Shown: in pieces, positions 1 through 23,223 of the stretch | How positions within the stretch are numbered: the stretch's first letter is position 1 | Layout: the number at the start of each line of letters is the position of its first letter | Source: a virus | Length of the DNA stretch: 23,234 bases | Direction: 5' to 3' (one strand) | IMG/VR virus record: IMGVR_UViG_3300025120_000584 | Coordinates: 1-23,234 of that record | Notes under the pieces: generated by a model | Seen by the model: only the letters and a program-made list of their open reading frames with translations | Database searches by the model: none | Told to the model about the DNA's origin: nothing | Translations under genes and position numbers: made by a program

Positions 1-3000
1 TAGCCGTGCATCTAATGCCGATATTATATCGTCGTAAGTGTCTTGGAAGTAGTTTCGCATCTGACGGTAGAAAGCCTTACCCTCATTGTCTAACTTATCA
101 TACTCTGCTTTTAACTGATCGTATTCAGCAGAACGTTCTTTGTCGTCTCGTATAGTTTTCATATACTTTGCATCACTACGAGACGGATCAACTTTTAAGA
201 ATGTAGATCGTGGGATTATATTGTTTAGTACTTTTGCAAGGTCTTTGTTCTTGCGCTGCCACGCATGTAGATTATTCAGTATAGAGTCTAAGACTTCAGA
301 CTTTTGACGTAGTGCACCACTTTGCTTGTTAATAAGCATGTTCAATTGCTTGGCGAATGGTATTTTCTTTGACGCTATGTCTGTCAAGATGTTTACAGGC
401 AATGTATTAAGTGTCCAGCTCTTAGCTGTTCTTCCTACACCCTCGTCAAATACAACGCTACTGAGTTCAGCTATTTTTTCTTTACCGCTTTCAGGTACTA
501 CGTTTGCTATATTTTGAACTAGCCCTGCGGCTCCTTTTTTATTGTCTGCTGCCATGAGCATATTCGGTGCAGCACGTGTAGCAGGTGACGGAGATAGTAA
601 TCCTTCTATAAGGCGATCAACTTCTGACAGTGCAGTCGGTGACGGCGATAGACCTAATATCTTACGCACGACACGTTTGATAGCACCTGTAAACTTCTCC
701 CAGCCTGACATCTTACCGCCATCCACCCGGGTGAGAGCTAGTGCGCTTTGGAACTCAGGGTTGCTAAATGCTTCAGCGACAAACTCATCAAGACTAGCTG
801 TGCCATAAACTTCCCCAAATTGCTCGCGTATATTTTCAAGAATAGTCTGTAGCTGCTTCACTTCTGGTAAAGATGGGTTTGCCGCAATCGATGCCGAGGT
901 AGCTGCGTGGGTCATCTCATGCAGTATAGTATGCACGTTCATCCCGTTGTTAGCATCGATGTAAATTGTATTCTGTTCAGGCGAAAACAAACCAGCAGCT
1001 TTGCGCCCCGCTAGTGGAGATATGTCATCAACCACTTGTACTTGTGTACCGCCGACAACACTGCCTAGCTTGGCTGCAATCTCGCGGATACGTTTTACTT
1101 GGCTCGTTGTAGCAATAGCATCTACCGCAAACTGTAAATCACCACGCTGCAAAGCGTTTTTTATACTTGGAAGTAGCTTTTGGTCTAGTCCATGCACAGG
1201 ATCAATAAGTAGGAAACCTAACTCACTTTTAGTGTAGGCAAGCCCGTCGTAGTATTCTTGTACTTCTTCTGGTGTAAGAGGTTTATTTTTATTCTCTGGA
1301 TCAAGATAAACGTACTCATCTTTTTTAGGAACTTTACGCTTTTTAAACCCAAGCCCTGCCATATAAGAATCAAACGCGGTTTGCCCTTTGACTGGCTTAA
1401 TTGCGCCAACTGCGCCTTCCCCGCGTTGAGCCTGATCTAATTCCGCAGGTGAACGAGTCTGTGCTTCTAGTTTAAGTGCATCAAGTTCACGATCCATCTG
1501 TTTTTGAAGTGCTTCGTTATCTTTGCGTTGAATACTTTTAGCTGCTTTAGTTACAGCAATATACGCATCAGAGGGGTTAAACTTAGATGTATCTCTACGT
1601 GCGGTTACACTTGCGTTGCGCGTTTCTACGAACGCTTGGCGCGATAAGTTATCAAACACCCACTTCCGTGCATCCATAGCGACTTTTTGAGTCATACCTT
1701 TGTAGAAAGCAAACTCTACAGGTGTGTAATCTTTTTCAATGTTTTGAGTCGGGCCTGCCACACTGACTGCACCCATTTCGGCAAGGGCATCAACAGGTCT
1801 ACGGAATCGTTTAAAGAATAATTTTGCGGCTTTAGCTTGTGGATTAAGTTCTTTGTCAGATGTTTCAAGTAGTTCCGCAACACCTTCTTTATCCACAGCA
1901 GTTGTGACTTCTGGTGCAGACTGTGGGTCTACTTGCGTATCGTGATATTCTCTAACTTGTGGTTGCTTGCCCCGATTGCTATCAAACACTTGCTCAATAC
2001 GTGCTTGCGCTGCTGCATCTTGCTGCGCTTCCATAGCTTGCAATTGTTCTTGCGGTACGGGTGCGGCTTGCACTTGCGGAGCATCGGGTACTTGCACAGG
2101 TGCAGGGATGTTCTGTTGTGCTACGCCAGTAACCTGACCCGGTATAGCCGCTTGCTGCATAGCAGGTGTAGCTTCTGTTTGTGGTGTGACTTGTACTGGC
2201 GTAGCCGTCGCCTGTTCAGCAAGCTGTTGTACTGCCGCTATGCCTTGCTCGTCAGGGGTTGTTTCTAATGTATCGGGCTGTTCTCTTGTTGCCACAACAG
2301 GTGGCACAGTAGTTGACATATCTGTTCCCACTGGTCTTGGCTCAAGTGGTGTAGGCTGGACGGCACTCTCAACTCCACTTCCATCCCCTCTTTCTCCATC
2401 CACGCTAGGTTTACTATCTGAAACGCTTGTTCCAACTGCTTCTGGCTCAGGTCTAACTCCTGCATTTTCGACCTCCAATCCGTCTAAGAAGCCTTGCACT
2501 CCTTCTTTAGCTTCTGGTACAGAACTTATATTTGCATAGTTTCTAAGTTCGTCAAGAACTCCTTCGTCAGATACTTTTTTACCAACTAAACTCTTTTTAG
2601 TACCCTCACGACGGATTAGTGCCTGCTTCGGCACACTAAGACTGGCTAAAAAGTCGTCATCGATTACTTGTTCTTGTGGCGTAACTGCCATACCTTCTAC
2701 AGGTTTTTTACCTACTTCAATCTGCTGACCAGTCTGTTCGCTCTCGATTGCAGCGGTGCCGCTTTCTTGTGGCTCAAGCCCAGGTAAGTAGTCTTGAGTC
2801 TTAGCTACAGCTTTTGCATCAGCCTTTTTTTGTTTTCGGGTTTGCTCGTTAACAAGGTTAGCTTCTTCTTTAACCACTGCCGCACTTGGTGTAGCAGTTT
2901 CTCCTGCCACCACAGCCGATTCTGCTGCACGTTGTTCGTCTGTTTGTTGTGCTTTACCTTTCGGTGATGTCGGGTCTGCTGCATTTTTAGCTTCTGTAGC

Positions 3001-4212
3001 TATTGCCGCGTTAGCTGCTAACCTACGCTCTGCTATAATCTGCTCTATAACGGCAGGGGAATAGTCTTGATCTAGTTCTTCTCTTATAAAATCTTCGTCT
3101 ACATTTGGGTCTGTTAACCGTGCATCTGTAGCTATCGCCGTCCTAGCAACAGAAATAGCGTCTTCAGTCGGCTCAACCGCAAATAACTCGCCCTGTTCTT
3201 GCCCTTTTTGTAACTGAGGAGTTGTTTGTGTGTCTTGTTCAACCTGCCCCTCCGGCCCAGGAGTAGTATCGTCTATTTCTGGACTACGCTCACCGAATGC
3301 TCCAAGTGTAGCTCGTGTGCCACCACCGACGAGACCACCTGCAATAGCTGCTTCACGATACTCTGCAATGGCATCTTCGCTGTCAATCGGTAGTCCTGCC
3401 TGTGCTCGTTCCATCATCTGTTGACCAACTTCGGTCAAACTTTCAGTTGTAGCACCACTACCTGCACGAGTAGCTGCGCGGGTAAAAATAGATTTTCCTA
3501 AAGAACGGAACGCTCCACCTAACAACACCTTGTCAGCAATACCTTCAAGAGCAGCTTGACCAAACGTAGCTACAAGAGCATCGCTAACATCGACTGACGC
3601 TTTTTTACCTGCGGCTACTTCATCCTCTTGACGTTGGATGTTGTTACCAAACAAAATCGGCGCGGTTGCAACTGCTGCGGCACCTGCACCTACGGCAAAA
3701 GAACCAAGTGCGGTTGCGGTTGCGGCGGCAGGGGCTACGATAGGGGCGGCTATGGCTGCACCTAAACCAAGACCAAGCTGTGGTATTTGTTCGCCAGCAA
3801 TTTCTCCTGCGTATGTCAACCCTGACATAATACCTTCTACATCTGTAGACTGCATGCGTTCTGGCTGCTCAAGCATTAACTCGCCTAACTCTTGTTGAGC
3901 GCGTCCCTCTAGTCCTTGTCCATATTCTGCAAGGAACTCAAGTCCAGACTTCTCACCGATAGTGCCAAGTGTCTCGCCAAATGCTTGTTTGATTTGTTTT
4001 TTACCACGAGCAAAACCACGACCTATCGCTGTGCCGTCATCAGGTTCTTCATACTCTCCAAAAGTTTCTTCATACTCAGTAGCAAAACTAGCCCTATCCT
4101 GGCTAAGAACTTCTCTTATCTTAGCAAATTCAGTGTTTGAAGGCGCGTCTCCAGCAATAGTGAAGTTGTATCCCTGCCCTGTTTGTGAGTCGATATACTG
4201 ATAAACACCCAT
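1..4212 (-). CDS. Giant polyvalent virion/ejection protein with HEMTH metallopeptidase domain (3'-partial)
   Basis: I read this frame codon by codon from the ATG at 4212 to the left edge and found no stop, so at least 1404 residues are encoded and the C-terminus lies outside the window. AAGGCG precedes the ATG by 7 nt. Visible parts: a short N-terminal region (MGVYQYIDSQTG); an Ala/Gly-rich hydrophobic stretch around residues 143-188 that could insert in or cross a membrane; a conserved-looking segment at ~258-310 (TEVGQQMMERAQAGLP); a long Pro/Gln/Thr-rich, probably disordered linker, densest at ~605-760; then HEMTH at residues 1098-1102 preceded by TIYIDANNGMNVHTIL. EFVAEAF at ~1143-1149 offers Glu1143 or Glu1147 as third zinc ligand, as in gluzincins. 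Charged helical sequence follows. Large multi-domain proteins of this kind occur in marine phages and are usually taken as internal virion proteins. Last gene of the GNAT/514/794 block, 11 bp after the 794-aa gene. Protease activity is inferred, not shown. Confidence 0.88.
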   Translation of the reverse strand, partial: MGVYQYIDSQTGQGYNFTIAGDAPSNTEFAKIREVLSQDRASFATEYEETFGEYEEPDDGTAIGRGFARGKKQIKQAFGETLGTIGEKSGLEFLAEYGQGLEGRAQQELGELMLEQPERMQSTDVEGIMSGLTYAGEIAGEQIPQLGLGLGAAIAAPIVAPAAATATALGSFAVGAGAAAVATAPILFGNNIQRQEDEVAAGKKASVDVSDALVATFGQAALEGIADKVLLGGAFRSLGKSIFTRAATRAGSGATTESLTEVGQQMMERAQAGLPIDSEDAIAEYREAAIAGGLVGGGTRATLGAFGERSPEIDDTTPGPEGQVEQDTQTTPQLQKGQEQGELFAVEPTEDAISVARTAIATDARLTDPNVDEDFIREELDQDYSPAVIEQIIAERRLAANAAIATEAKNAADPTSPKGKAQQTDEQRAAESAVVAGETATPSAAVVKEEANLVNEQTRKQKKADAKAVAKTQDYLPGLEPQESGTAAIESEQTGQQIEVGKKPVEGMAVTPQEQVIDDDFLASLSVPKQALIRREGTKKSLVGKKVSDEGVLDELRNYANISSVPEAKEGVQGFLDGLEVENAGVRPEPEAVGTSVSDSKPSVDGERGDGSGVESAVQPTPLEPRPVGTDMSTTVPPVVATREQPDTLETTPDEQGIAAVQQLAEQATATPVQVTPQTEATPAMQQAAIPGQVTGVAQQNIPAPVQVPDAPQVQAAPVPQEQLQAMEAQQDAAAQARIEQVFDSNRGKQPQVREYHDTQVDPQSAPEVTTAVDKEGVAELLETSDKELNPQAKAAKLFFKRFRRPVDALAEMGAVSVAGPTQNIEKDYTPVEFAFYKGMTQKVAMDARKWVFDNLSRQAFVETRNASVTARRDTSKFNPSDAYIAVTKAAKSIQRKDNEALQKQMDRELDALKLEAQTRSPAELDQAQRGEGAVGAIKPVKGQTAFDSYMAGLGFKKRKVPKKDEYVYLDPENKNKPLTPEEVQEYYDGLAYTKSELGFLLIDPVHGLDQKLLPSIKNALQRGDLQFAVDAIATTSQVKRIREIAAKLGSVVGGTQVQVVDDISPLAGRKAAGLFSPEQNTIYIDANNGMNVHTILHEMTHAATSASIAANPSLPEVKQLQTILENIREQFGEVYGTASLDEFVAEAFSNPEFQSALALTRVDGGKMSGWEKFTGAIKRVVRKILGLSPSPTALSEVDRLIEGLLSPSPATRAAPNMLMAADNKKGAAGLVQNIANVVPESGKEKIAELSSVVFDEGVGRTAKSWTLNTLPVNILTDIASKKIPFAKQLNMLINKQSGALRQKSEVLDSILNNLHAWQRKNKDLAKVLNNIIPRSTFLKVDPSRSDAKYMKTIRDDKERSAEYDQLKAEYDKLDNEGKAFYRQMRNYFQDTYDDIISALDARL

Positions 4213-4223
4213 TTATACACGCC

Positions 4224-6608
4224 TTACGATGTTACATTGATGTCTTTAAATCCACCTGCGTTATCTGCACTAGCAGGATTAACATTAAAAGAAGCATCGA
4301 ATACTCGTTTTAATTCATCATAACGTGTTGCGGCTGCATCAAAAACTTTCTTTGCTGCTAGTTTAGCAGGGCCAGGTTTTGCTTGCATGTACTTCTCTTC
4401 TGCATCTGTCAGTTCAGTGTATGCGCTTGAAAGTGCAGTGGCAGGTATATTTTTACCCGCACGTTGTGATCTAATGTTTGCAATGTCTAGTTGTGTCTGT
4501 AGCTTGAGCATGTCAGCGTCAAAAGCTTGCTTACCCTTCTTAGATGCGCTCAAAGCTTTCAGCCCTGCCTGTCCACCTTCGCCGACTGCTCCTAACAACG
4601 TAGGAGATTTAGAACCCATTATCTGGAACCCAGCTTGTGCAAGTGCCATCCACTTATCTGATTCAGATTGCTTCTGACGTTCTGACAACATCTTAGCAAT
4701 GCGAGAATCTGTAGAGCCAAATCCTGCGGAATCGGGATCGGTCACAGGTAATCTTTTGTTGGGGTCATCGTCTGTAGTTACCTTTGGTGCAGGAGTGGTA
4801 GGATCACCAATATTTGGATTTTCCATTTCTAAGTCAGGAAAAAAGCCAGAAACTTCAGTACTAATTCCTGGAACGACTTCAGTAGCCCCACCACGTAGAG
4901 CGTCTATACGTGCTTCTCGTTCTGCTTCTGACTCAATACCAGCTTCATTTTCTAATTCTCTATCAGCTACAGCATCTTGTGAGGCTTTTATATTTGCGGC
5001 TGCTAACCGTGGATCAACTCCTGCTAATACTTGCTCATTAAAAGTTTGATATATAGAAGAACCCACATTTTGTAACGCGCTTGGTATGTTACGAAGAGCT
5101 TCTGCTGCGTCTTCTCCCGTTTCCATAGTATCTATACGGCGCATCAATACATTTTTACGTTTTGCTAATGCATTTGCAAGTATTTCATCATTTGCCTGTT
5201 CCGCATCAAGAATTTGTTGGTTTATATCAGCAATTTGACCTTCTAAAACTTCTCTTTTATTTGGCACTGCGCCTACCTCTAACAACGACTCTGGCTTTAG
5301 GGTACTATCATAAAGACTTTTACCTGCTGCTGCTGCCGCACGGCCAAGAAACGGTACTACATCTCCCATAAAGGTAGGTTTGTCTGTTTCAGCTTTCGCT
5401 AATGCCCTTTGCTCTGCATCGTTAGAAACAGACGATAGGTAAGGTATAGGATTAAACCCACCCGATTCATCCCCAAAACCTGCATTTCGTTTTTGAAGAA
5501 ACTCTTGTGTAGCTGTGCCTATACCTTCAGGGTAGAGTGTATTTGCTACATCTTTAAACTCATCGCTAGCCAGATCCATGCCTCCAAATTCTGTAGCGCC
5601 TAGTCTTGGGTCTACGTCTGACATAGAAGATATTGATGGAAGCTCACCTGAATCAACATTTTTAAGGGCGTCGGGAGCGTCATCTAAGAAGGGAGAATAT
5701 ACTTTTGGATTTGATGTTGGCCCTCTTTCATTCATATAGTTTTTATACTTAATAAACATTTCTTGGGCTTGAGGCACGTCGTTAAAACCATTTTCCTCTA
5801 AGAATGTTTCATATGTGTACGCAGGATTTGACCCAAAGCCTGTTCTTGGTCTTAACGGATCTTCTGGCAATTCTGGATCATCATCTCTACGCTCATCTGC
5901 TAACGGAGCTAGTGTGAAGTCTTCTATATTTTTAGACACGCTTCCGATACCTTCGCCGCCTAGATAAGTGCTTTGTGAAGGATCACGAAAAGACTTATTA
6001 CCGAAGATACCTTGATCTTCCATTCTTTGTAGGTCACGCCGTTTAAAACCGTCCATGCCAAGCGGTATTCGCCCTATATCTGCTTTATTTAAAAGCATGG
6101 ACTCTGCTTCACGAACAGCATCTACACCATAATTAGAGATAAGTGATTCTTTATCTCTTCCACTTTGTAATTCGGCTGCAATTTTCATTAAATCAACTTG
6201 TTCAAGACCGCTTAATGAGGTGTATTGTGTCATGGGGTTTAGGCCACCATTAGCCATCCTAACAATACCGCCTTCTGCCATCATTTGTGGTTGAGGTGCA
6301 CGTGTAGCAGGAATTGGTGTGGCTGTGTCCATGCCCGTATTCTGAGCCATGTTTGTATTCGGTGCCATTGCTCGTGCTGCGCCCATAATACCTTCTTGTG
6401 GCATACCTGCGGCTGTGACAACTTCTTCTGCTACGGTAGGCATATCGGCGTTTTGTTGGCGTTGGAAGTCATCCCGCATGCGTTTACGGCGTTTTAGCTC
6501 ACTCAAGACAAGAAACTGTGGTGCAGATCCCGTAGGAGCCTGCATCTCTTGCATTAGTGCGTTATCTGGTAAGTCTTTAAGGCTGTCCTGAAGTTTTAAA
6601 ATGTTCAT
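4224..6608 (-). CDS. Putative internal virion (ejection) protein, 794 aa
   Basis: The start ATG overlaps the stop of the 514-aa gene by four bases (ATGA, 6605-6608), which implies translational coupling. The N-terminus (residues 1-60, with LPDNALMQEM and LVLSELKRRKRMR) resembles an opening seen in many marine phage structural proteins. Residues 111-122 carry AEGGIVRMANGG, a motif almost repeated in the 359-aa protein at 8564-9643. The middle (~230-440) is acidic, Pro/Gly-rich and probably extended. Residues ~450-575 are helical and charged, and likely form a coiled coil. The C-terminal part (~635-770, with DKWMALAQAGFQIMGSKSPT) is a hydrophobic/Gly segment followed by a long helix. No enzymatic motif was seen. 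Length and position match T7 gp15 (747 aa) by order only; I see no sequence similarity. The ejection role is inferred from context. Confidence 0.85.
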   Translation of the reverse strand: MNILKLQDSLKDLPDNALMQEMQAPTGSAPQFLVLSELKRRKRMRDDFQRQQNADMPTVAEEVVTAAGMPQEGIMGAARAMAPNTNMAQNTGMDTATPIPATRAPQPQMMAEGGIVRMANGGLNPMTQYTSLSGLEQVDLMKIAAELQSGRDKESLISNYGVDAVREAESMLLNKADIGRIPLGMDGFKRRDLQRMEDQGIFGNKSFRDPSQSTYLGGEGIGSVSKNIEDFTLAPLADERRDDDPELPEDPLRPRTGFGSNPAYTYETFLEENGFNDVPQAQEMFIKYKNYMNERGPTSNPKVYSPFLDDAPDALKNVDSGELPSISSMSDVDPRLGATEFGGMDLASDEFKDVANTLYPEGIGTATQEFLQKRNAGFGDESGGFNPIPYLSSVSNDAEQRALAKAETDKPTFMGDVVPFLGRAAAAAGKSLYDSTLKPESLLEVGAVPNKREVLEGQIADINQQILDAEQANDEILANALAKRKNVLMRRIDTMETGEDAAEALRNIPSALQNVGSSIYQTFNEQVLAGVDPRLAAANIKASQDAVADRELENEAGIESEAEREARIDALRGGATEVVPGISTEVSGFFPDLEMENPNIGDPTTPAPKVTTDDDPNKRLPVTDPDSAGFGSTDSRIAKMLSERQKQSESDKWMALAQAGFQIMGSKSPTLLGAVGEGGQAGLKALSASKKGKQAFDADMLKLQTQLDIANIRSQRAGKNIPATALSSAYTELTDAEEKYMQAKPGPAKLAAKKVFDAAATRYDELKRVFDASFNVNPASADNAGGFKDINVTS

Positions 6609-8149
6609 GCTGATAGACCTTTATACAGTCCAAGTGCCGAAATACCTGCGCCAAGTGCTTGTTGCACTGGATTATAATTTGCAAACCTTGTTTGCTCCAC
6701 ATCAGGCGTGACTGGTACACCACGTAAAATACCTGCCATACGCTCATATTGTGAGATCGGGTAATCACGTTGTCTAATAAAATCTTCGTAAGCAAGGTCA
6801 AGCCTACCCTGATCTTCTGCACGAACATCCCTACCAATCGATTCAAGTAGCTGTGCGCCTTGAATATCTGCTGCACGTTGTCGCTCACCCAAACCTGCAA
6901 GACCTGCGCCCAAGCCTGCGAGATTGCTAGCTCCAGATCCTATGGCACCGTATGCTGAAAGACCCTGACCTGCACCGAACTGACGAGACTGTTCTGTAGC
7001 TGCTTGTACACGAGCAGCTTCTTGCTGCATAATTTGATCCATACGAGCATTTTCTGCTGCTTCTGCTGCTTGCACTCTGCCCATTTCTGATGCTTTACCT
7101 GCCTCAATACGGGCCAAGTCTTGGTACTTAGAAGCCTGAACACGAGCGCGTTCCGCTGCTTCTTGATTACCTGCACGAGCAAACTCAGCCGCTTGTGCTT
7201 GTTCTCTAGATGCAAGCTCTGTGTATCTAGCTTGATCTACACGAGCTTGTTCACCAGCTTGACCTGTTTGAACTCTTGCCATTTCAGCAGCACGTCTTGC
7301 ATCTGATTCCATTCTTGCTGCACGATCAAGTCCGAACTGCTGTGCTGCCTGTTCAAACGCAGACTGTGTGCCACCAGCCTGTATATCACCTAGCTGTCTA
7401 CCCAATGATTCTTCAGCTAATGCCTCTTGTACTGCCTGACGCGATCCACCAAACGCTCCTGCCTGTACTGCTCTTGCTGATCTTCCCGATCTTTGTCGTT
7501 CAAAGTCTAACTCAGCTTGCTGCTTCTGCTCATCAACAACTGCTTGCATATACGGAGACATGTACCTTTGAGCTGCTGCTGCGGTAAAATCTTCAGGTTC
7601 TCTAAACTGATACTGTTGAAATTGGTAGTCAGGTCTAAAACCAAACTGGCTAAACTGTGTTGGGTCACGAAATTGATACTCATTAAATTCTCCGAACGGT
7701 GTGAACTCTGCCTCTTTAAACCCCTCGTACCGTGTTGGATCGAAAGCGCTAAACTCACCAGTGTCGTAGTTTGCTAGACCACGCAAACCACCTAGAGCCT
7801 CTGCCTGTATATCCATACCTGCTTGTGCTGCGCCTTGGGCTTGAGGCATGCCTGAAATACCAGACTGCGCTATGCCGCGTGTCATGGCACGAGAGCCTTG
7901 GATGTCACCATACATAGAAGATGGTGCGATGCGCTCACCTTGATACGGCATATAAGTGGACTTCTGACCAAAGCCTGTGATGTTGCCTTCTGCGTCGTAA
8001 GTTGGATTGCTCAGATCATCTTGAAACGGCATAAGGGCTTCTTCTGCACCCTGCAACATCCGACGAAAATACGGATCAGCGTATTCAGGTAAGTTTGTTT
8101 GACGTTGTGTTACGTCAGTGGGTGTTTGTCTTGAACTGCCCTTGCCCAT
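6605..8149 (-). CDS. Putative internal virion protein with hendecad coiled coil, 514 aa
   Basis: The ATG at 8149 has GGAG upstream (in GGAGTTATAAA) and lies 1 bp after the GNAT-like gene. Layout: polar N-terminus (1-50); Gly/Ala segment (~85-125); a strikingly aromatic stretch (133-188) with YQFRDPTQF and YQFREPEDF; a segment with AVQAGAFGGSRQAVQEA (227-243) of a type common in marine phage structural proteins; nine consecutive 11-residue repeats (288-386, consensus xExARVQAxxA); a Gly/Ala hydrophobic patch (~393-421); and a C-terminal helical region ending in a small Gly-rich tail. Hendecads form long, nearly untwisted helical bundles. A protein with a long helical rod, aromatic stickers and short hydrophobic patches would fit a core or ejection component, but that is inferred. 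Next to the GNAT-like gene and the 794-aa and giant genes. Confidence 0.86.
   Translation of the reverse strand: MGKGSSRQTPTDVTQRQTNLPEYADPYFRRMLQGAEEALMPFQDDLSNPTYDAEGNITGFGQKSTYMPYQGERIAPSSMYGDIQGSRAMTRGIAQSGISGMPQAQGAAQAGMDIQAEALGGLRGLANYDTGEFSAFDPTRYEGFKEAEFTPFGEFNEYQFRDPTQFSQFGFRPDYQFQQYQFREPEDFTAAAAQRYMSPYMQAVVDEQKQQAELDFERQRSGRSARAVQAGAFGGSRQAVQEALAEESLGRQLGDIQAGGTQSAFEQAAQQFGLDRAARMESDARRAAEMARVQTGQAGEQARVDQARYTELASREQAQAAEFARAGNQEAAERARVQASKYQDLARIEAGKASEMGRVQAAEAAENARMDQIMQQEAARVQAATEQSRQFGAGQGLSAYGAIGSGASNLAGLGAGLAGLGERQRAADIQGAQLLESIGRDVRAEDQGRLDLAYEDFIRQRDYPISQYERMAGILRGVPVTPDVEQTRFANYNPVQQALGAGISALGLYKGLSA
6992..7288 (-). repeat. Nine 33-bp units encoding hendecad repeats
   Basis: Residues 288-386 of the 514-aa protein divide without gaps into nine 11-mers, such as AEMARVQTGQA, GEQARVDQARY, AERARVQASKY, QDLARIEAGKA, SEMGRVQAAEA and QEAARVQAATE. 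Ala4, Arg5 and a hydrophobic residue at 6 recur in most units. The DNA is diverged, so the period is clearest in protein. Confidence 0.8.
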
Positions 8150-9695: not shown

Positions 9696-10304
9696 TTACG
9701 TTAACCATCCATATATCTTATTTGTTTCTTCTTTGCGGTGCTTCAACCCGTTGTAGCCACCGTTTACTCTTTTTGTGACTGTTTTTATAACTTCGTCGTT
9801 AACGCCTTCGTCACATATTTCCCATAGTTTATTCCTATGAAAGAACCAGATAGCTGACTCCATAGGGTATTTTGTAGCCACAAGATCAGGATCTTTTAAT
9901 ACTTCAGGCAAATCCATGTCCGTTGCGAACTGAGAATAGTTATTTTTTCCAGTGCATTGTAAGAATCCGCGCCCTCGCCACAGATAACCCTGTCCAGAAT
10001 TACCCATCCTGTCACCGTATACACGATCAGCTAGAGCCTGCGGGTTACGAGCACAGCTTTCGGCATCACTCTCCGACTTAAAATATTTGCCAAATACCCC
10101 TAATATAGATTCTTTGCTGTAGTTTAAGTTCTCTTCTGTATAGCGAAACGTACCACTCTCATGAACAAGTTGTCCTAAGAAGTGCGACCCACGCTCTGGA
10201 TTTAAAGCGTAGTGGTCACAGATTTTCTTTGCAGTGTTAGGGCCGAACGAGCCATCAGGTGCAGATCCTATCTTTTCCTGCAATGTTTTTAATGCTTCAC
10301 TCAT
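9696..10304 (-). CDS. Endolysin, glycoside hydrolase family 19 (chitinase-like muramidase)
   Basis: 202 aa; AAAGGAG precedes the ATG by 9 nt. Residues ~5-35 resemble a short peptidoglycan-binding domain (APDGSFGPNTAKKI). The remainder is a GH19 domain: VHESGTFRYTEENLNYS (47-63) holds Glu49, the likely general acid, with Glu57 or Glu58 as the likely second carboxylate; GRGFLQCTGKNNYSQF (111-126) is the GH19 substrate-cleft signature; VNGGYNGL (180-187) is the C-terminal signature. GH19 endolysins cleave the beta-1,4 glycan backbone of peptidoglycan. There is no signal peptide, so it should need a holin, in keeping with the four small membrane proteins upstream. The 5' end overlaps the preceding gene by 8 bp. 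Last gene of the lysis cassette. Confidence 0.95.
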   Translation of the reverse strand: MSEALKTLQEKIGSAPDGSFGPNTAKKICDHYALNPERGSHFLGQLVHESGTFRYTEENLNYSKESILGVFGKYFKSESDAESCARNPQALADRVYGDRMGNSGQGYLWRGRGFLQCTGKNNYSQFATDMDLPEVLKDPDLVATKYPMESAIWFFHRNKLWEICDEGVNDEVIKTVTKRVNGGYNGLKHRKEETNKIYGWLT

Positions 10305-12441: not shown

Positions 12442-12692
12442 ACTACTATCCTTAATTCACCAGTTGAAGTTTTATATACATCATTTACCGACAATCCTCC
12501 AGTGACCGCCGCAGCGTTGTTTGCGTATGTTGGTAAGTTTAACAGATTTAAAGTGTTAAATACAGCAGTTCCTGGATTCTGTGCTTGAGTAAGATAAACA
12601 GAAAACGCTCGAACTACTTCTGAAAAATATCGCTGATCGTATGCTTGAGGCGCAAGTGGAAAATACGGGACTGGTGCTTCTTTAGTAGCCAT
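12438..12692 (-). CDS. Small conserved phage protein, 84 aa
   Basis: The ATG overlaps the TAA of the tail hub gene by one base and GGAAGAAG lies upstream. The N-terminal half has a Tyr/Phe/Pro-rich start (VPYFPLAPQAYDQRYF) and an amphipathic helix (FSEVVRAFSVYLTQAQNPG). The C-terminal half (LPTYANNAAAVTGGLSVNDV then TSTGELRIVV) matches a motif of the form GGLxxxDVYxTxTGxLRIV, often seen at the C-terminus of small proteins next to tail genes in marine phages. Likely a minor virion or tail protein; function unknown. Confidence 0.78.
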   Translation of the reverse strand: MATKEAPVPYFPLAPQAYDQRYFSEVVRAFSVYLTQAQNPGTAVFNTLNLLNLPTYANNAAAVTGGLSVNDVYKTSTGELRIVV

Positions 12693-14611
12693 TATCTTCT
12701 TCCATCCTGTCTAATGTCTACACGAGGTGAGCCAAGTCTCCAACCAACACCTGTCTCACTAGACTCCACTCTTAATGCCATTGACCGACCACGAAGCCTT
12801 ACATAAACTTGGTTCGTAAACTGCTCTACAGGAGCAGTGGCTGTTCTAGTTACTGTCTCGTCATCAGTTTGTAGGTAGTTACCACCCGGAAAGTTTCTTG
12901 CCTTCATGGTGAGTGTCACACTTGGATTTAATGAAGTGGAGTTTCTAAAAGTAACATCAGGTATTACTTTACTTACAAAAGAAAAGTTGTTTCCATCTCC
13001 GATGTCAAACTGACTAGATTCTATATACGCACTAATAGCTGTAGCAGGTGCTGTGCTTCCGTCGTCAAAACCATTTTCATGATAATATAAATATCCATCA
13101 AGACCCGCTGCAATTGGATAATCCACAACCCCACGATCTGTCCATGCCCCACGATCTAATGTTCCGTAGTACCAGATGTTCTGCATATAATTGTAAACAG
13201 CATATCGATCTACTGTAGAGCTACCTGATGAACAATAAAACCACCAAACTTCTGAATACGCAGTATTTGACGCAGCAAATATTTTTTCTACCTGTCCTTC
13301 GTTAAAATCACTAAACACATAATCTTTTACACTACATGGTATCTTTTGAACTGAACCAGTATACACATAAAACTCATTAGCACCCATCCAATATACATTG
13401 TCTTCGATGGCTATTGCGGCATTCGGACTTGCTATGGTTATATTTTCAGAAACCATATTGATGCCGAATGTAAACGGTGGCCCTAAATACTGCATTGCGT
13501 GAAGAGATATATCGGTAAACACTAGAATTTGCTGCCGTGTTTCTGTTGCCGTAACAATCCTAGAACCAGATCCCACAAGCAAATCACCTGCTGTATTTGT
13601 AGTAGTCGGTGTCCAATCAGCAGCGTCTTCTTGATCGGAGAACCTTATCAATAACGGGTCTTGTGTAGCACTTCCTAACGGATTACAGCCAAAAGCTATA
13701 ACATGCCTATCTACGTCAGAAACAAGAACTTTTGCTGCTATAGTGGGAGTGTTGCTTGCTCCTGACAAAGAAGACAGAGGCACGGCTCTTTGCGATAGAG
13801 GAGTAGATGCAGACGCATCCCAATAGTAAACACCACCGTTGTACACGTTGATAATTAAGTCTTCACCAAAGTTATCATGTGACCACAAGCGAAGCGTATC
13901 TGTTTGAGCGTTAATAGTAGCTGCTGAGCCCCAAGCTCCTCGTGACCAAGTCCCTGCACCCCAGCCATTTCCAAATACAGATGTCTCTAATCCTGTATTG
14001 ATTTGATATGCACCAACGACAGATGAGCCTCCGTTACCTGTATCTGAAGAGTTTGCTGCTACAGCGACGGGAGTGTAGTTTCCAGCAGATGTGATATCGG
14101 CTACTGTATTAACTTCACGAGCAATAATTGTGTAGCTGTTACTATTAACAACGGCAGCTATTTTATATTCTTGATTTAAAACATTAGCGGTAATATTACC
14201 ACCAAGAGTAGCCGCGCCACTAAAAGTTACAAAATCACCTTCAACAGCTTCATGGTTTGTATCAGTGACTGTAATGGTAGAAGATGTATTTGTTGCCGCA
14301 AAGGTTACATCTCCAGCGGATGTCGTGACTCGTATTGGGGTTATGTCGTAGTAACCTTGACCACTTTCAATATAGTATTTGTCACTTGTACCGACACCTA
14401 AATAATTATCTAAAGCAATCGTTCTCCAAGGGTGCAATGCACGGCAAGAACCAAGAAAAGATTTAAGACCAAGCCTTGTCCAACCGCCGATCTTTTCTGG
14501 ATAACCCGCTCGAAAACGAACTTTATCCATGTCAAACCAACCACCCTCATTACTATACGAGGTAGTTTCTTTATTGATCCCTGGTTGAAACTGAAGTTTG
14601 GTTAGAGGCAT
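12692..14611 (-). CDS. Tail hub / packaged-DNA stabilisation protein (P22 gp10-like)
   Basis: 639 aa; AAGGA precedes the ATG. The opening (LQFQPGINKETTSYSNEGGW, then FRAGYPEKIGGWTRL) is characteristic of a marine podovirus tail-hub family that I relate to P22 gp10 (Phage_stabilise). Residues ~95-165 (VTDTNHEAVEGDFVTFSGAA and following) form an inserted beta domain; then come a WGAGTWSRGAWGSA segment (~217-230) and a series of beta repeats that fit a propeller-like body. The C-terminus (VRLRGRSMALRVESS through SPRVDIRQDGRR) parallels the final strands of gp10. In P22 this protein lies between gp4 and the tail needle and closes the portal channel. Follows the fibre-chaperone gene with a 28-bp gap. 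Family relation is from memory, not a search. Confidence 0.8.
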   Translation of the reverse strand: MPLTKLQFQPGINKETTSYSNEGGWFDMDKVRFRAGYPEKIGGWTRLGLKSFLGSCRALHPWRTIALDNYLGVGTSDKYYIESGQGYYDITPIRVTTSAGDVTFAATNTSSTITVTDTNHEAVEGDFVTFSGAATLGGNITANVLNQEYKIAAVVNSNSYTIIAREVNTVADITSAGNYTPVAVAANSSDTGNGGSSVVGAYQINTGLETSVFGNGWGAGTWSRGAWGSAATINAQTDTLRLWSHDNFGEDLIINVYNGGVYYWDASASTPLSQRAVPLSSLSGASNTPTIAAKVLVSDVDRHVIAFGCNPLGSATQDPLLIRFSDQEDAADWTPTTTNTAGDLLVGSGSRIVTATETRQQILVFTDISLHAMQYLGPPFTFGINMVSENITIASPNAAIAIEDNVYWMGANEFYVYTGSVQKIPCSVKDYVFSDFNEGQVEKIFAASNTAYSEVWWFYCSSGSSTVDRYAVYNYMQNIWYYGTLDRGAWTDRGVVDYPIAAGLDGYLYYHENGFDDGSTAPATAISAYIESSQFDIGDGNNFSFVSKVIPDVTFRNSTSLNPSVTLTMKARNFPGGNYLQTDDETVTRTATAPVEQFTNQVYVRLRGRSMALRVESSETGVGWRLGSPRVDIRQDGRR

Positions 14612-21811: not shown

Positions 21812-22468
21812 CTACATTTCCACCCTTGGCTGACCATCACGGTAATCATCACGTTTTAATCTGCCTTCACCTAACATCATTAATCTCTGCATTGCTTCGT
21901 TATATCTCTCCCTATAAACAGCAAGGACATCAGCCTCACCCTTCATATAAATGTACGCCTCGACTAAGGAGCCATATAATAAAGCTTCTTCTGAATTGTC
22001 ACCAAGCCATGATGTGCTTGACGTAACGATTGAAGGAGGATCAAAATAATAGTGCAATTGAACTTCATAAGTAGAGTCTGGAGTCGGACCAAGAATAAAA
22101 TGCCCCGGAGAATTGGTTGACTGAACGTCTCCATCAAACTCTGCATAATACTTTGGAAGTCCAGTTGTGGTTTTGTTTGGGTACGCTTCACGGATAAAGT
22201 TTACATCTTTAGGAAGCATAAAAGAATAGTCGCCAGATCCGTCAATTACAGCAATGGAAAACGGTGCCAAGAAGTCTGAAGGTCTAGCAAGGAACCTATT
22301 TGACGCTGCCATATTCGCAGTTACGTTTTTGCGAAGTTCTGGAATCAATACAGTGCGATGTATTTTTTCTTCTGTCTGGCGCACAAAAGTAGGTATCTGA
22401 GAAACAAAAGATGTTTCCAAGTTTTCAGTGTAGTCTTTAATCGCCTGTATTAATTCAGAATAGTTCAT
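21812..22468 (-). CDS. Head-tail adaptor (P22 gp4 / SU10-type)
   Basis: 218 aa. The opening (MNYSELIQAIKDYTEN, then FVSQIPTFVRQTEEKIHRTV) and the helix LRKNVTANMAASNRFLARPS (45-64) are typical of podovirus adaptors that dock under the portal ring. A beta region follows (GDYSFMLPKDVNFIREAYPN; HFILGPTPDSTYEVQLHYYF), and the C-terminal helices (EALLYGSLVEAYIYMKGEAD, YRERYNEAMQRLMMLGEGRL) are the classic ending. The ribosome site is weak (GGA 9 nt upstream) and the start lies inside an inverted repeat shared with the upstream stop. This supports a podovirus and places portal and capsid genes to the right of the window. Confidence 0.82.
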   Translation of the reverse strand: MNYSELIQAIKDYTENLETSFVSQIPTFVRQTEEKIHRTVLIPELRKNVTANMAASNRFLARPSDFLAPFSIAVIDGSGDYSFMLPKDVNFIREAYPNKTTTGLPKYYAEFDGDVQSTNSPGHFILGPTPDSTYEVQLHYYFDPPSIVTSSTSWLGDNSEEALLYGSLVEAYIYMKGEADVLAVYRERYNEAMQRLMMLGEGRLKRDDYRDGQPRVEM

Positions 22469-22665: not shown

Positions 22666-23223
22666 TTACTTATCCTCATTATAAAGGTTATCAAATACTC
22701 TATTTACATCCAGTGTATAGTCTAAATCGCTTTTTGAATAGTGTATATGTTGTGAAGGTCTAAAATCAGGTGCGCCTTGTCCAGTTTCAAACCAAGCAGG
22801 ATGTGTTACTCGAACACGATTATTAGGGAGTGCAACAACGTTGCCTGTCCATTTACCTGCATCTAGTAGTTGCATGACATGACTTTGCTTATGTTGTGCA
22901 GGGTCGTCAGCTATTTCGTTTTCTGAATAGTCAACGGTAAACAAGTATTTTGCAGGATACATATCACCGTCTATTTTAGCTAACCAAGGGCATGGTGTAG
23001 CTCTGTCAAGAACATACACAGCGTGTGTATGGGATGAACAATCCCAAGGTTGTGCATCGTGTACTTCCATAGGTTCAGGCCACTCTTCAAGTGGTTCATC
23101 TGCAACCAATGCAGTTATAGGCATTCTAGCCCACATTGCACCGCCATGTACGTTTTCATCGCCCTCATCATCAGCTTCGCAACCTGTAAAGATGATTTGA
23201 AAGCTTAAACATCTGTTTGGCAT
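22666..23223 (-). CDS. Conserved phage protein of unknown function, 185 aa (start near window edge)
   Basis: The ATG at 23223 is the only start in the window, and no stop precedes it in the remaining 11 bases, so a longer N-terminus beyond the edge cannot be excluded; I see no ribosome site in those bases. Features: HGGAMWARMPITALVADEPL (26-45), AQPWDCSSHTHAVYVLDRAT (57-76), IDGDMYPAKYLFTVDYSEN (83-101), then QHKQSHVMQLLDAGKWTGN (108-126) and ALPNNRVRVTHPAWF. These conserved-looking blocks with many Trp, Pro and His suggest a globular beta-rich virion or assembly protein of a type found beside head genes in marine phages. Not identified further. Confidence 0.75.
   Translation of the reverse strand: MPNRCLSFQIIFTGCEADDEGDENVHGGAMWARMPITALVADEPLEEWPEPMEVHDAQPWDCSSHTHAVYVLDRATPCPWLAKIDGDMYPAKYLFTVDYSENEIADDPAQHKQSHVMQLLDAGKWTGNVVALPNNRVRVTHPAWFETGQGAPDFRPSQHIHYSKSDLDYTLDVNRVFDNLYNEDK

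Follow-up and report, generated by a model that had tools for sequence, protein, structure and literature searches.

A truncated giant gene from a short-tailed phage probably encodes a polyvalent ejection protein whose zincin-like domain is homologous to a domain of PhiM1 gp48

Introduction

Phage polyvalent proteins are giant, multidomain late proteins that carry HExxH domains and are encoded next to virion genes; LPD39 (PF18858) was defined as one of the domains of this class (Iyer 2017, PMC5512222). The same study favoured self-processing for the class, discussing the processing of P1 DdrB as a precedent, and left host targets open (PMC5512222). A protein of similar description is the virion RNA polymerase gp50 of phage N4, a giant last ejection protein whose N-terminal part binds lipid and which has an HExxH C1 domain (PMC12633501). 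This gp50 shares its kind of domain with the polyvalent proteins and is packaged unprocessed (PMC5512222).

Structural data are available for phage PhiM1, whose tetrameric ejection protein gp48 has been visualised by cryo-EM within the capsid ejectosome (PMC11440229). Residues 268-528 of gp48 were described by the authors as endolysin/exotransglycosidase-like, on the basis of BLASTP and DALI (PMC11440229), and phrog_342, the family to which gp48 belongs, is named 'internal virion protein with endolysin domain'.

Here we analyse a virus record from IMG/VR, 23,234 bases long and referred to in full as the window, which ends inside a giant open reading frame. Comparison with its relatives and with the systems above makes it very probable that this frame covers the N-terminal ~1,400 of about 2,200 residues in a polyvalent ejection protein from a short-tailed phage.

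Results

The giant frame is real, truncated and mosaic

The truncated gene occupies positions 1..4212 on the minus strand (residues 1-1404 of an estimated ~2,200). As an earlier note on this DNA had described, it starts at an ATG at 4212, runs for 1404 codons with zero stops and leaves the record at base 1. An AAGG lies ~9 bases 5' of the ATG. The other five frames contain between 36 and 132 stops over the same positions, and the chance of 1404 codons free of stops at the base composition of the window is ~2e-36. In comparison with two relatives, L008 and L003, the leader, HExxH and LPD39 parts give a dN/dS of 0.05-0.20, the middle part (residues 760-990) one of 0.17-0.41 and the linker one of 0.39-0.55; with L028 and L013 the value for the linker goes up to 0.59-0.73. 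Judged by these ratios, the giant frame is under selection, and this, together with the low chance of such an open frame, led us to reject a spurious ORF.

Scanning viral contigs, we found 39 loci of the giant-protein family. The complete relatives in IMG/VR are about 2,000-2,340 amino acids long, which means that ~780 residues are missing from the window protein and that its C-terminal third is known from relatives only. Different stretches of the window gene are closest to different relatives: nucleotide identity to L028 is 96-99% over residues 1-300 and that to L002 is 93-98% over residues 301-500, both dropping to 43-79% beyond, L019 is 96% identical at residues 701-800, and L003 and L008 are 88-92% identical at residues 1001-1400. 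By these sequence comparisons, the gene is a recombinant mosaic, with stretches of 92-99% identity to L028, L002, L019 or L003 and values of 43-80% for these relatives in the rest of the gene. In one relative (L082, ~4500-4800) the frame is broken inside the peptidase domain and the downstream part is open in another frame, which could be either an assembly error or genuine.

Domain order of the giant protein

The order of domains is a leader of ~310 residues, a linker, the HExxH domain, LPD39 and, last in the relatives, a tail-700/PLxRFG region. The N-terminal leader (3283..4212, minus strand; residues 1-310) is conserved across the family and is also present ahead of other payloads; no PHROG or Pfam model matches it, and its predicted structure had confidence too low for use. 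Within the leader lies the Ala/Gly-rich hydrophobic stretch that the earlier note had pointed out (3649..3786, minus strand; residues 143-188), with 19-residue hydrophobic windows at 146-164 and 169-189, and this stretch may act at the membrane. The low-complexity linker that follows (1933..3282, minus strand; residues 311-760) evolves fast, with dN/dS of 0.39-0.73 overall. The earlier note had also seen this long linker but called it Pro/Gln/Thr-rich, while Gln/Ala/Pro/Val/Glu-rich is a better description. Pfam matches to UbiA, YscX, DUF5010 and PreAtp-grasp were weak, under their cut-offs, and were rejected.

Overlooked in the earlier note, LPD39 was found by a Pfam scan of the window protein at 10..429 on the minus strand (residues 1262-1401, running past the edge; E=1.1e-15, score 58.2 against a cut-off of 27). 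In complete relatives, NCBIfam recognises the tail-700/PLxRFG region (NF032893), for example at residues 1462-2172 of L008 (E=3e-87). Concerning enzymatic domains, the chain has the peptidase-like one, LPD39 is only suspected to be enzymatic and an ADP-ribosyltransferase occurs just in distant relatives of the leader; Pfam, PHROG and NCBIfam scans recognised no second well-characterised enzyme domain in the close family of the window protein.

The relatives also match phrog_10089, the DarB-like antirestriction proteins, mainly in the tail, that is, in their C-terminal ~375 residues. The shared tail alone accounts for this match, and Pfam scans of the window protein and relatives found no methylase/helicase domain, the other part of the DarB-like proteins. 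We have thus rejected the antirestriction label.

A zincin-like domain homologous to a domain of PhiM1 gp48

The zincin-like HExxH domain spans 613..1095 on the minus strand (about residues 1040-1200). Its motif, HEMTH, lies at 907..921 on the minus strand (residues 1098-1102) and is followed by EFVAEAF at residues 1143-1149, both where the earlier note had placed them. Shuffling the window protein produces HExxH in 0.28% of cases, and in 0.015% an ExxxE stands at a suitable place as well, but conservation in the family is better evidence than these frequencies: HEMxH is kept in all the family members spanning the site (38 sequences including that of the window), and E1143 and E1147 are invariant in the family.

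A structure was modelled for residues 995-2187 of L008 (1,193 residues), which is 90% identical to the window protein over the shared part. In this model HEMTH lies in a helix (129-147) after three strands (93-97, 110-113 and 118-122), and the conserved Glu pair lies in a later helix (177-186, window residues 1141-1150). The resulting order of helix, three strands, HExxH helix and Glu helix is the zincin core order reported for the peptidases of polyvalent proteins (Iyer 2017, PMC5512222). Confidence is higher at HEMTH (block mean 85) than at the Glu helix, where a pLDDT of about 60-63 is modest. Thus, the model supports the placement of the motif in a zincin-like domain, with HEMTH on a helix and the Glu pair on a following one. 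A Foldseek search of the whole 1,193-residue model against the PDB returned nothing significant, a single-sequence PDB search with L008 returned no match, and the most similar predicted viral structures were those of polyvalent proteins and internal core proteins.

When a profile of the HExxH domain was searched against PDB sequences, PhiM1 gp48 came first (8vb2, E=0.001), followed by an internal virion protein (9sfn, E=0.0016), and later matches were non-significant. Among these, a match to anthrax lethal factor (E=0.34) was not used as evidence. A profile-profile comparison was made against a PhiM1-type profile of seven homologs taken from annotated phages, and it indicated homology at 97.7% over 117 columns (E=2e-12), compared with 13% or less for column-shuffled and unrelated control profiles. 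The homologous part of gp48, residues 350-501 of 8vb2 (L120:4001-4456), has a conserved HExxH, which reads HEAAH in 8vb2, and a downstream Glu. At the position of E1147, all seven PhiM1-type homologs have Q and 9sfn has W, while HExxH and the first Glu are kept. Because the first Glu is kept and the second is not, Glu1143 (784..786, minus strand) is most likely the third zinc ligand; on this reading the domain would bind zinc and may cleave peptides.

The HExxH signature is also the reason to re-read the 'endolysin' domain of PhiM1: its sequence suggests that the PhiM1-type domain is a zinc peptidase, akin to the peptidases of polyvalent proteins. A limited search of the open-access literature found no statement of this re-reading.

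The gene closes an ejection set

Upstream of the giant gene, on the same strand, are ejection, lysis and tail genes. In the window's family the giant gene is the largest and last of a three-gene ejection set. The second gene of the set, directly upstream (4224..6608, minus strand), encodes 794 amino acids with conserved ends and a hypervariable, low-complexity centre; conservation is confined to the first ~115 residues and a patch near 630-715, homologs vary from about 580 to 1,155 amino acids, and a single-sequence search against phages gave no match. It is preceded by a 514-amino-acid gene of the 'DNA ejection protein' family (6605..8149, minus strand; phrog_4287, E=8e-7). PhiM1 has three internal-protein genes in the same order, of 204, 904 and 1,263 amino acids, again with the largest last.

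Further upstream are a separate lysis gene, an endolysin of phrog_181 (9696-10304), and a structural protein of phrog_3287 (12692..14611, minus strand), which is shared with the podophages DSL-LC04, HTVC023P and CRP-901 and annotated as a stabilization protein in podophage relatives. A head-tail connector, an SU10-type adaptor (PF24175, E=1e-23), lies at 21812-22468. Near the far edge, a 185-amino-acid ORF (22666-23223) matches phrog_3704, named ferredoxin (E=5e-15), and has no Pfam match; it is weakly similar to an HTVC023P gene annotated as phosphoribosylaminoimidazole synthetase. In the relatives, the giant gene is faced by a gene on the opposite strand, of 780-960 amino acids in most. DSL-LC04, HTVC023P and CRP-901 each have a last ejection gene at a position similar to that of the giant gene; neither the leader nor the middle, HExxH, LPD39 and tail-700 parts showed homology to these genes.

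One leader, several payloads

A search with the leader alone found 88 viral loci, of which 80 were kept, plus one contig in a Porticoccaceae MAG. In all 23 divergent loci that were examined, an ejection-family gene precedes that of the leader protein, either immediately or separated from it by one gene. What lies downstream of the leader varies: HEMxH with LPD39 and tail-700, HEAxH or HEGxH types with LPD39 and tail-700, or HExxxH types. Scans of 13 divergent members found LPD38 in eight, ART-PolyVal in two and GP88 in one. In the distant relatives L111, L113 and L115, HExxxH replaces HExxH, a variant known among polyvalent peptidases (PMC5512222).

Discussion

That the window protein is a further member of the known polyvalent class is well supported. 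It shares with the class the giant multidomain late protein, the HExxH domain, LPD39 and the adjoining virion genes, as well as tail-700 in complete relatives, and differs in having a leader that no Pfam or PHROG model recognises. The only match in an isolated phage is EVB41_084 of Rhizobium phage RHph_TM3_14A (QIG67549.1, 2,307 amino acids), with 25% identity over residues 1094-1389; it is preceded by genes of 362 and 963 amino acids on the same strand, and its leader has no detectable similarity to that of the window protein. The likeness to the PhiM1 gp48 (phrog_342)/T7 gp16 group lies in the order of the three internal-protein genes and in sequence homology over the HExxH domain only: in gp48, with 1,263 amino acids, neither LPD39 nor tail-700 nor a matching leader can be detected, and the domain carries its authors' endolysin label. 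The likeness to N4 gp50 is one of description, and no RNA polymerase domain was found in the window protein.

The earlier note had proposed an ejected protein with a protease domain acting on the cell envelope or on host proteins. The former part is well founded because of the homology to the PhiM1 ejection protein and the position of the gene, whereas the latter was over-specific; the note also did not recognise the polyvalent class. From packaging and ejection to membrane insertion, catalysis and the cleavage target, we infer the following course. The giant protein would be made late and packaged into the capsid together with the 514- and 794-amino-acid proteins of the ejection set, in which it comes last, and would be ejected before the DNA. 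The leader, with the hydrophobic segment inside it, would attach the protein to the ejection channel and the inner membrane; by analogy with N4 gp50 (PMC12633501) and T7 gp16 (PMC8954989), the leader is most likely the part that engages the channel or membrane. The LPD39/tail-700 part would then enter the cell, and the zincin-like domain would cut its own polypeptide, either in the capsid or after entry, releasing the domains. That the peptidase serves mainly for self-processing is the reading we lean towards, at slightly below an even chance; we prefer it to a fixed target in the host, since the payloads change whereas the peptidase is retained. Since N4 gp50 is packaged whole, cutting may come after entry or never.

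Two other targets are each improbable, to a similar degree, though worth weighing. The HExxH domain of the ejected protein could act on the envelope, on peptidoglycan cross-links or envelope proteins, opening a path for the channel, as suggested by the endolysin labels on the homologous PhiM1 domain (PMC11440229) and on phrog_342, and by the muralytic domain in T7 gp16 (PMC8954989). However, HExxH with a downstream Glu is a zincin peptidase signature, not that of a glycosidase or transglycosylase, and the window has its own phrog_181 endolysin gene at 9696-10304. It could also cleave a host cytoplasmic protein after entry, such as a defence component: polyvalent proteins are thought to be active in early phage-host conflict, with host targets listed as possible (PMC5512222), and relatives with the same leader have an ADP-ribosyltransferase domain. 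Yet a peptidase that stays constant while payloads vary fits general processing better than one fixed target.

We consider it rather less likely still that the HExxH domain is non-catalytic, having lost activity or never had it, and serves packaging or folding in the capsid. The peptidase-containing region of the N4 protein is required for encapsidation and that protein is packaged whole (PMC5512222), but His1098, Glu1099, His1102 and Glu1143 are invariant amid varying neighbours, and structural use alone needs no such invariance. An early-expressed intracellular protein, instead of a virion protein, is very improbable; the gene stands last in a run of tail, lysis and ejection genes on one strand and is opposed, in relatives, by a gene set on the other strand.

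With a chance well below even, the leader could be a portable module for packaging and ejection. Phages would retain it, each time behind the ejection-protein gene, and exchange the payload that comes next (different HExxH/HExxxH peptidases, LPD38, LPD39/tail-700 or ADP-ribosyltransferase), with the neighbouring peptidase freeing each payload in the cell.

Our results place polyvalent ejection proteins in a further group of phages, short-tailed and uncultivated, that has many relatives among viral metagenomes. Moreover, PhiM1 offers a structurally characterised, culturable phage in which to ask what the peptidases of polyvalent proteins cut.
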